Source: Pelagibacteraceae bacterium AG-426-L23
GTDB lineage: Bacteria; Pseudomonadota; Alphaproteobacteria; Pelagibacterales; Pelagibacteraceae
Length of the DNA stretch: 64,000 bases
Direction: 5' to 3'
NCBI GenBank assembly: GCA_003213115.1
Contig: QCNU01000001.1
Coordinates: 62,001-126,000 of the forward strand
How positions within the stretch are numbered: position 1 is the stretch's first letter; each line of letters starts with the position of its first letter. The notes below the pieces were generated by a model, which saw only the letters and a list, made by a program, of their open reading frames with translations, did no database searches and was not told the origin of the DNA. Positions 5,177-7,604 of this stretch are shown piece after piece. A program made the translations under genes and the position numbers.

Positions 5177-5890
5177 ATGACAAAAAAAATTAATAGTAAA
5201 TTAACCAAACTTGCTAAATATTATAGCTTAATTAATTATAATTTAATATATGACAGTAATGCTATTAACAGATATAAAAAAGATGGTTTTAAATTGACTG
5301 GAAATAAAACAGAACAACTTCAAAAACTTAAAAACTCAATAAAAAACATCAAAAACTGTAATTTAAAGAAAAGTGCGACAAATTTAGTTTTTTCTGACGG
5401 GAACTCCTCATCTAAAATAATGTTGATTGGTGAGGGACCTGGAGCAAACGAGGATAAGGAAGGTTTGCCATTTGTTGGAAGAGCTGGCCAATTACTTGAC
5501 AAAATGCTCTTATCAATAAAATTAGATAGAAAAAGTGTTTATATAACTAATGTTGTAAATTATAGGCCTCCAGAAAATAGAAAACCTACAGATAAAGAGA
5601 TTGCTAGATATCTTCCTTTTTTAACAAAACATATAGAAATAATAAATCCTAAAATATTAGTTTTACTTGGAAGTACAGCTCTTAATACAATAATTGGAAA
5701 TGAGGTTGTTATTTCTAAAGCTAGAGGTAAATGGGTTGAAAAAAAAATAGGAAATTGTTCAACTCACGTTATAGCATCTTTTCATCCTGCTTTTTTAATG
5801 AGACAACCTGATCAAAAAAAGATGTCGTGGATCGACTTAAAAATGGTAAGACAAAAAATAAAAGAGTTAAAAATTAAAATTGAAAAATAA
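5177..5890 (+). CDS. Uracil-DNA glycosylase, family 4-like
   Basis: The enzyme excises uracil from DNA. The core has the family 4 motifs IMLIGEGPGANEDKEGLPF, VGRAGQLLD, VYITNVVNYRPPENR and the C-terminal SFHPAFLMRQPDQ. I use the ATG at 5177 (237 residues); a longer TTG-initiated frame would overlap the divergent TPR gene. Three of the four positions that carry Fe-S cysteines in classical family 4 enzymes are other residues: Ile in IKNC, Tyr in VNYRPP, and Tyr in IARYLPF. Alphaproteobacterial relatives seem to share part of this pattern. rnhB overlaps the last 11 bases. Confidence 0.88.
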   Translation: MTKKINSKLTKLAKYYSLINYNLIYDSNAINRYKKDGFKLTGNKTEQLQKLKNSIKNIKNCNLKKSATNLVFSDGNSSSKIMLIGEGPGANEDKEGLPFVGRAGQLLDKMLLSIKLDRKSVYITNVVNYRPPENRKPTDKEIARYLPFLTKHIEIINPKILVLLGSTALNTIIGNEVVISKARGKWVEKKIGNCSTHVIASFHPAFLMRQPDQKKMSWIDLKMVRQKIKELKIKIEK

Positions 5891-6452
5891 AAAAATAATA
5901 GCTGGTGTAGATGAGGTTGGTCGTGGTTGTTTAGCTGGTCCAGTTGTATCTGCGGCTGTTATATTAAAAAAAAATATTAATTTAAAAGATATAAAAGACT
6001 CAAAAAAAATTAATTTCTCAAACAGATTAAAGATTGCAGACTATATAAAAAAAAACTCCTACTATGCAATCGGTATTGCTAATGTAACTGAAATTTTTAA
6101 ATTTAATATATTAAAAGCTTCTTTGCTTTCAATGAAAAGAGCTATAGAAAGTTTGTCGAAAAAACCTAATTTAATATTGATTGATGGCTCTTTTGCACCA
6201 GATGGAATTGAAAATTATAAAACAATAGTTAATGGGGATAATAAAATAAAGTGTATTAGCGCTGCATCAATAATAGCTAAAACTTATAGAGACCTTTTGA
6301 TGATAAAATTATCTGAAAAATTTTCAAATTATGCATGGGAAACTAATTTTGGCTATGGAACCAAAGCTCATCTAGATGGTCTAAGAAAGTTTGGTATCAC
6401 AGCTCATCACAGAAAAAGCTTCAAACCAGTACACAAGATATTGTCAAGATAA
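5880..6452 (+). CDS. rnhB: Ribonuclease HII
   Basis: RNase HII cleaves the RNA strand of RNA-DNA hybrids and single ribonucleotides embedded in DNA. The 190-residue protein opens with GVDEVGRGCLAGPVV, which carries the first catalytic Asp-Glu pair; a further Asp lies in LILIDGSF, followed by KCISAASIIAKTYRD. The gene overlaps the udg stop, consistent with a small repair operon. It is followed by the GANTC-rich leader of ccrM. Confidence 0.95.
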   Translation: MKNKKIIAGVDEVGRGCLAGPVVSAAVILKKNINLKDIKDSKKINFSNRLKIADYIKKNSYYAIGIANVTEIFKFNILKASLLSMKRAIESLSKKPNLILIDGSFAPDGIENYKTIVNGDNKIKCISAASIIAKTYRDLLMIKLSEKFSNYAWETNFGYGTKAHLDGLRKFGITAHHRKSFKPVHKILSR

Positions 6453-6530
6453 GAGTCTATAACACAAGAAGAGTCCTTTTTTTTCCAAAATGGTTTGACC
6501 CATGATTCAATTTAGAGTTGAATCTAGAAA
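6453..6530 (+). promoter_or_regulatory. ccrM leader with four GANTC sites and a candidate promoter
   Basis: This 78-base gap holds four GANTC sites: GAGTC at 6453-6457, GAGTC at 6471-6475, GATTC at 6504-6508 and GAATC at 6520-6524. GANTC is the target of the CcrM enzyme encoded immediately downstream. A plausible promoter is TTGACC (6495-6500), a 17-base spacer, then TTGAAT (6518-6523); one GANTC lies in the spacer and one overlaps the -10-like element. That would start transcription close to the ATG. Methylation-sensitive autoregulation is an inference. I saw no CtrA-type TTAA-N7-TTAA box. Confidence 0.6.
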
Positions 6531-7604
6531 ATGACAAAATTTTCTAACAAAATTTTAAATGGTGATTGTTTAAAAGAACTAAAAAAAATTCCTGACAAAA
6601 CTTTTGATTTAGTTTTTGCGGACCCTCCTTACAATATGCAGATTGGAGAAAAATTAACTCGGCCTGATGCAAGTAAAGTAAATGGAGTTAATGATAAGTG
6701 GGACCAGTTTAATAGTTTTAAACATTACGATGATTTCTGTAAAGCTTGGTTAGTTGAATGTAAAAGAATTCTAAAAGATAACGGATGTATATGGGTTATT
6801 GGTTCGTATCATAATATATTTCGATTGGGGTACCATTTACAAAATTTAGACTTCTGGTTACTTAATGATGTGATTTGGAGAAAAAATAATCCAATGCCAA
6901 ATTTCAGAGGTACAAGGTTTACTAATGCTCATGAGACTTTAATTTGGGCCTCAAAAAATAAAAAGTCTAAATATACTTTTAATTACCAATCTCTTAAATG
7001 TTTAAACGATGATTTACAAATGAGATCAGATTGGTCATTGCCCATTTGTAATGGAAAAGAAAGGCTAAAGAAAAGAGGAAAAAAAGTTCATTCAACACAA
7101 AAACCAGAAGCATTACTTCATAGAATTATATTAGCCACAACAAATAAAGGCGATTCAGTTTTTGATCCTTTTTTAGGAACCGGAACTACTGCGGTAGTTT
7201 CTAAAAAATTGGGTAGAAATTATTGTGGAATAGAAAAAGATAAAACATACTTTAATGCTGCAAAAGAAAGAATAAATAAAGCGATGAAAATTGAGGATGA
7301 TTATCTTGATACAATTCAAAATAACAAATCTAAACCAAGAATCCCTTTTGGATCACTAGTTGAGTTAGGAATAATTAAGCCTGGAACATCATTAATGGAC
7401 CCCAAAAAAAGAATTAATGCAAAGATAATGGCAGATGGAAGCATTAAATATAAAGAATCTGAAGGTTCAATCCATAAAGTTGCTGCAAAGATAATGGGAA
7501 TCGAAAGCTGCAACGGTTGGACTTACTGGCATTATAATTTAAATGGATCAACAGTGGTTATTGATAATCTTAGACAAAAATTTATTGCTGAGAAACAATC
7601 CTAG
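6531..7604 (+). CDS. ccrM: Cell-cycle-regulated adenine DNA methyltransferase CcrM (GANTC)
   Basis: CcrM methylates adenine N6 in GANTC sites and couples replication to transcription in many alphaproteobacteria. At 357 residues it matches Caulobacter CcrM in length. The order is that of a beta-class enzyme: catalytic FADPPYNM near residue 33, the target-recognition region in the middle, and the SAM-binding motif DPFLGTGTTAVV near residue 215. The C-terminal 85 or so residues (from FGSLVELGIIKPG to NGWTYWHYN) form the extra domain typical of CcrM. There is no restriction partner nearby, so it is a solitary methyltransferase. The stop shares the palindrome CTAG with the convergent FAD monooxygenase. 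Confidence 0.95.
   Translation: MTKFSNKILNGDCLKELKKIPDKTFDLVFADPPYNMQIGEKLTRPDASKVNGVNDKWDQFNSFKHYDDFCKAWLVECKRILKDNGCIWVIGSYHNIFRLGYHLQNLDFWLLNDVIWRKNNPMPNFRGTRFTNAHETLIWASKNKKSKYTFNYQSLKCLNDDLQMRSDWSLPICNGKERLKKRGKKVHSTQKPEALLHRIILATTNKGDSVFDPFLGTGTTAVVSKKLGRNYCGIEKDKTYFNAAKERINKAMKIEDDYLDTIQNNKSKPRIPFGSLVELGIIKPGTSLMDPKKRINAKIMADGSIKYKESEGSIHKVAAKIMGIESCNGWTYWHYNLNGSTVVIDNLRQKFIAEKQS

Follow-up and report, generated by a model that had tools for sequence, protein, structure and literature searches.

The 78 bp that separate rnhB from ccrM in the window (the whole 64,000-nt stretch of Pelagibacteraceae DNA analysed here) hold four GANTC sites, the expected methylation mark of the enzyme encoded immediately downstream, and two of these sites lie in register with predicted -35 and -10 elements in an arrangement that has relatives upstream of ccrM in many other Alphaproteobacteria. 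We read the sequence as a core promoter of ccrM that is old and whose elements have methylation sites fused to them. We lean towards the view that the activity of this promoter depends on the methylation of its own GANTC sites.

The downstream gene, ccrM (6531..7604, plus strand), encodes a CcrM-group adenine DNA methyltransferase of 357 aa with a C-terminal RAMA domain. Its best NCBIfam match was NF050803 (E 3.2e-173, near full-length alignment), at 575.5 bits, a score below the curated cut-off of 830 for this model, whose name points to the Caulobacter form. An N6_N4_Mtase domain (PF01555, residues 26-246) is followed by RAMA (PF18755, residues 263-356), and these matches support the initial annotation of the enzyme as CcrM-like. 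GANTC is reported to be methylated in Pelagibacter: in strain NP1, 3477 of 3482 sites are described as fully methylated, with lower methylation near ori (PMC9516812). The upstream neighbour, rnhB (ribonuclease HII; 5880..6452, plus strand; PF01351, E 2.6e-35), has a stop codon that ends at 6452, one base ahead of the first GANTC, and the ATG of ccrM begins at 6531; the 78-bp gap between them is filled by the four sites, which span 72 bp.

All four sites reported for these 78 bases were verified, at 6453, 6471, 6504 and 6520. Sites 1 and 2 (both GAGTC; 6453..6457 and 6471..6475) lie 42 and 24 nt upstream of the TTGAC of the -35 element, site 3 (GATTC, 6504..6508) lies in the promoter spacer at TTGAC+9, and site 4 (GAATC, 6520..6524) overlaps the -10-like element at TTGAC+25. 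GANTC is depleted across the window (95 sites observed, 169 expected from dinucleotide shuffles), and therefore the cluster stands out. It is the sole cluster of four sites in 78 bp within the window, and of trials that placed 95 sites uniformly, 1.2% produced an equally tight cluster at any point of the window, in agreement with the earlier claim that such packing is unexpected by chance. We surveyed 384 kb, made up of the window and 16 further stretches of the 987-kb assembly that total 320 kb. No intergenic region there except the rnhB-ccrM gap had more than two GANTC sites, and its 72-bp run was the tightest run of four, the runner-up spanning 117 bp. GANTC density in the same 384 kb was about equal in coding and intergenic DNA (1.80 and 1.68 per kb), and we saw no general intergenic enrichment, unlike the marginal one (P = 0.05) reported in PMC9516812.

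The proximal two sites coincide with a candidate promoter. The -35 element TTGACC (6495..6500, plus strand) and the predicted -10-like element TTGAAT (6518..6523, plus strand) are separated by 17 bp; as the initial annotation had it, one GANTC site lies in the spacer after TTGACC and one overlaps TTGAAT. These two sites are also the outer ends of an inverted repeat, GATTCAA-N7-TTGAATC (6504..6524). TTGACC and the 17-bp spacer fit sigma-70, and TTGAAT has T-7 and is without the A-11 of the ancestral form described below. A-11 and T-7 are the two most important bases of a -10 element, and a simple sigma-70 scan that required A at the second -10 position did not report the ccrM promoter. Because TTGAAT has no A at -11, either the promoter would be weak and activator dependent or the -10 assignment is wrong.

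The predicted transcription start, derived from spacing only, falls at 6530..6531 on the plus strand, at or beside the ATG. The same coincidence is seen in relatives: the first in-frame start codon stands at TTGAC+35/36 in 49 of the 81 Pelagibacteraceae leaders examined (we use leader simply for the region upstream of ccrM), and of the 39 two-site leaders in a class-wide set, 19 have an in-frame start between TTGAC+33 and +40, where starts are 5.6 times as dense as over the following 70 positions (2.5 versus 0.44 per position). Since start codons sit where transcription should begin, the ccrM mRNA is probably leaderless in the window and in many of these species, and the word "leader" that was first applied to the gap, with its transcription start expected at the ATG at 6531, is probably the wrong one. 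We also considered an RNA structure formed by the repeat and set it aside: the signal was weak (z -1.23), and the repeat would be untranscribed if transcription starts at the ATG. No intrinsic terminator was found ahead of ccrM.

The age of the arrangement is suggested by a comparison across the class, in which 84 ccrM leaders out of 102 typed were examined, one from the same family and the rest from other families; L173 (too short) and 17 others were left out, and TTGAC is missing from ten of the 84. TTGAC-N2-6-GANTC occurred in 49 of the 84 leaders (0.5 in shuffles) and the two-site pattern in 39 (0.03 in shuffles), with an average of 3.6 GANTC per 280-nt leader as against 1.1 in shuffles. 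Sites stood at preferred distances from TTGAC: 42 of the 84 leaders had GANTC at +19, where 0.1 would be expected, and 46 had it at +19 or +20, with other peaks at +8 (20 leaders, 0.15 expected), +10 (11), +9 (10) and -15 (16). All 42 leaders with the +19 site continue with A and have T four positions beyond it; neither base had been selected for. The -10 element of the +19 form is CANNNT at a 17-bp spacer, with A-11 and T-7 in 42/42, and its first base, the C at -12, is the last base of the GANTC site. The central base of the 46 sites at +19/20 varies (C in 33, A in 11, T in 2). Furthermore, 144 genomes contain 117 matches to TTGAC-N14-GANTC-ANNNT, of which 43 are at ccrM.

A second recurring motif, TTGAC-N-GAATC-N-TGATTC, was seen in many genomes of the class. 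In L247:1-2101 and L248:1-2101 (genomes G112 and G239) it lies just upstream of a gene for a small membrane protein followed by pdhA, an arrangement that L246, the third of the loci read for this motif, does not show; the membrane protein looks like FtsB/DivIC, and we take these gene names from recognition.

The nearest relatives of the window's ccrM locus are Pelagibacteraceae (SAR11). We compared 81 species-level leaders from this family, namely the window and 80 related loci from the genome collection (L002-L081); loci in reverse orientation (L085, L086, L087, L091, L093, L094, L099, L101, L102, L107 and L108) were left out of the family counts. TTGAC is present in 81/81. A GANTC starts at +8 or +9 from the first T of TTGAC in 76 of them, and a second one at +20 in 29 and at +25 in 35, together 64; both proximal sites are present in 59 leaders and at least one of the two in all 81. 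The central base is T in 48, A in 25 and C in 3 of the first sites, and A in 35 and G in 29 of the second. In 38 of 47 genus genomes and in 30 of 35 genomes of a second family, TTGAC-N2-6-GANTC-N3-12-GANTC is found directly ahead of ccrM. Across 101 Pelagibacterales genomes this pattern was matched 117 times, 68 times at ccrM. The complete sister-genus genome L145, in which GcrA is present, has neither proximal site.

The prediction that the sites would be conserved in related genomes thus held for the proximal pair (76/81 and 64/81) but not for the distal pair. Among the 53 leaders nearest the window, site 1 is kept in 27 and site 2 in 30, values that are ordinary for that stretch and no better than those of neighbouring words, and we rejected distal conservation as evidence; the central base of both distal sites is free, that of site 2 being C in 25, T in 3, A in 1 and G in 1 of its 30 keepers. 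Site 3 is kept in 47/53 and site 4 in 37/53 of the same group. The four sites, first presented together, are therefore not equal: the proximal ones are tied to the promoter, but the distal ones vary and the second proximal site has been lost several times while TTGAAT stayed intact. In the block that contains the proximal sites, the non-GANTC bases AATTT and GTTGAAT are conserved at least as much as the sites, and the central base of the proximal sites is fixed in these 53 leaders; conservation there is therefore not creditable to methylation alone.

Other features of these leaders were noted in passing. A short ACAC(A/T)A-like word, at about 6461-6466 in the window and some 34 nt upstream of TTGAC, recurs at near-constant spacing in many leaders of both clades and is a candidate binding site. 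In nine of the 81 loci (e.g. L054, L057 and L058), which form part of the sister clade, an inverted repeat, TTTCACGTAGAAAC, lies in the rnhB-ccrM gap just after the rnhB stop codon; it resembles parS with one extra central base. A genome-wide SAR11 regulon was considered and rejected: TTGAC-N3-GANTC gave 2 matches against 6 in the reversed control, and TTGAC-N4-GANTC gave 2, including ccrM, against 6 in the control.

The initial annotation had described the architecture as different from that of Caulobacter. The window does have a layout of its own, but one that is a derived form of the arrangement found across Alphaproteobacteria. Most leaders of the second family keep the +19 layout with CATATT as the -10 element, and one Pelagibacteraceae clade has its second site at +20. 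The clade of the window has it at +25, within the TTGAAT that stands in place of the -10 box, and there GATTCAATTT-N3-GTTGAATC makes up an inverted repeat. In the ccrM tree, one clade shows the +20 layout in 26/26 rows, and +25 is confined to the other clade (55 rows, with weak inner forks). By these comparisons the SAR11 layout (+25, TTGAAT and inverted repeat) is derived; we rejected the +25 form as the ancestral one on the strength of the +19/+20 outgroups and the ccrM tree. Two loci, L042 and L049, have both layouts, a +20 GANTC promoter and ATTCAAC-N5-GTTGAATC nearer the ATG, and could represent a transitional form between the clades.

The inverted repeat has another possible meaning, which is that a dimeric regulator, acting on ccrM as a repressor or an activator, binds across the spacer and -10 region at GATTCAA-N7-TTGAATC (or GATTCAATTT-N3-GTTGAAT). 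The GANTC ends would then belong to the regulator's site, and their methylation would be secondary or irrelevant. This would account for inner bases that are conserved at least as much as the GANTC bases in the 53 leaders of the window's group, and for the distribution of the core repeat ATTCAA-N7-TTGAAT, which occurs about once per genus genome and mostly at ccrM (the only place or one of two in most genus genomes examined). It also fits L042 and L049, which retain the repeat form by the start codon despite their +20 promoter. However, the sister clade and family f2 are without the repeat, so that GANTC sites and promoter elements are all that is common to these groups, and TTGAAT is preceded by an invariant G that runs counter to the repeat's symmetry. 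We regard such an operator as an unlikely explanation of the sites.

Candidate regulators were sought in the genome. GcrA is encoded in the window's genome (PF07750, E 2.6e-39), and the DNA-binding and sigma-interacting parts of Caulobacter GcrA are recognisable in it, with matches to chains of 7ye1, 5yiu and 5yix. Caulobacter GcrA is described as binding DNA in a methylation-dependent manner (PMC3667746) and as binding sigma (PMC3667746, PMC7403470), and Caulobacter promoters with GANTC between -35 and -10 are described as one timing class (PMC4287350). The locus combines the two features expected of a GcrA promoter, GANTC within or next to the -35 and -10 elements and a GcrA gene in the genome. 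Co-occurrence across the 84 class genomes did not support GcrA as a demonstrated reader, the two-site motif being found in 30 of 69 cases with a detected GcrA and in 9 of 15 without (p=0.27); undetected divergent GcrA genes could explain part of this null result. If the promoter does depend on methylation, we incline to the view that GcrA is involved.

CtrA was not found among the four OmpR-type regulators (PhoB and three others) of the assembly, which is 84% complete: with a Rhodobacter-type model the best score was 141 against a cut-off of 350 bits, and the three regulators other than PhoB matched other families best. In G183, a complete sister genome, 4/4 regulators were scanned with the same picture, none of them near the CtrA cut-off; in G061, two of the four OmpR-type regulators were scanned. 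The CtrA box TTAA-N7-TTAA is likewise missing from the 78-bp gap, in which there is no TTAA anywhere, and among the 81 leaders extended by 100 bp it occurs in three, the window not being one of them. Pelagibacter has been reported to have no ctrA orthologue (PMC2877005).

A further reading holds that the sites are kept through promoter sequence and ancestry, with GANTC incidental and the distal sites noise. It draws on three observations: conservation of the distal sites does not exceed that of the words around them, site 4 is often lost, and the motif is not linked to the presence of GcrA. Against this, GANTC recurs class-wide at fixed TTGAC offsets (42 leaders versus 0.1 at +19, 20 versus 0.15 at +8), in sites whose central base varies and whose flanks differ, and sigma-70 spacers need no such words. 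Moreover, the second site moved between clades (+19, +20, +25) yet stayed on or beside the -10 box. We consider it doubtful, for these reasons, that the promoter by itself explains the sites. That the cluster serves instead as a CcrM loading or protection zone, or as a strand- or replication-sensing mark that leaves ccrM transcription unaffected, could be suggested by the depletion of GANTC elsewhere in the window and by the extra upstream sites in many leaders (3.6 per 280 nt), but the sites are in register with the -35 and -10 elements and not merely with the gap, and we think this most improbable.

Under methylation control, the reading that we prefer, the 78 bp would be the ccrM core promoter containing the enzyme's own methylation mark. 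The promoter would be poor alone and would be opened by GcrA-sigma70 when its GANTC sites are methylated on one strand or both. Once the replication fork had passed, it would be hemimethylated and active and CcrM would accumulate, until the sites within and beside the -10 box became fully methylated and initiation dropped again; the outcome would be one limited pulse of CcrM in each cell cycle. Given methylation dependence, we hold it an even question whether full methylation turns the promoter down, and the opposite sign, in which methylation activates and the feedback is positive, is compatible with our data. Against methylation control as such, a 2010 survey judged the number of GANTC sites ahead of cell-cycle genes an insufficient basis for inferring it (PMC2877005). 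More broadly, and as a tentative proposal in which we place limited confidence, Alphaproteobacteria may share an ancestral ccrM promoter, TTGAC-N2-5-GANTC-N4-7-GANTC-ANNNT, with the recognition site of the methylase fused to the -10 box, that acts as a thermostat of cell-cycle methylation; in SAR11 this loop of methylation, GcrA and replication would by itself time ccrM, as a minimal cell-cycle clock.

SAR11 are the most abundant marine bacteria and have CcrM and GcrA and apparently no CtrA, and the layout of the ccrM promoter across many relatives suggests a link between the output of CcrM and the methylation of the ccrM gene itself. If true, this would give a sequence-level definition of a methylation-gated promoter, testable base by base, and would explain how a genome that lacks CtrA could time its methylase. 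It would also mean that one regulatory loop has been kept across the class despite GcrA and CcrM regulons that are otherwise rewired, as has been reported between close relatives (PMC7987155). The class-wide ccrM layout and its SAR11 variant are not described in the open-access literature that we searched; subscription papers lie outside that search, and a description may be in print.

Autoregulation of ccrM by methylation is of a kind already known. The original work on the Caulobacter ccrM promoter, by Stephens and colleagues, is said to have found it active when hemimethylated and shut by full methylation. The Caulobacter crescentus promoter resembles the one presented here in its GANTC sites, and is described as transcribed only when hemimethylated and shut down when fully methylated (PMC2217572); it differs in being activated by CtrA, whereas the window's gap is without TTAA and CtrA was not found. 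Set against the published description of the Caulobacter promoter, the placement of the proximal sites here, in the spacer and over the -10-like element, is a further difference. The GcrA-dependent methylated sigma-70 promoters of the ctrA P1, mipZ and podJ type are alike in having GANTC between -35 and -10, GcrA and CcrM in the same genome, and a weak -10 element, as the one predicted here would be. Here, by contrast, two sites are in register with the -35 and -10 elements, one of them fused to the -10, and the promoter is that of the methylase's own gene, with a putative role for GcrA. Some restriction-modification methylases regulate their own gene via sites in its promoter, and like them ccrM carries the enzyme's target sites in its own promoter; unlike them, it encodes a solitary cell-cycle methylase and has a core promoter conserved across the class.
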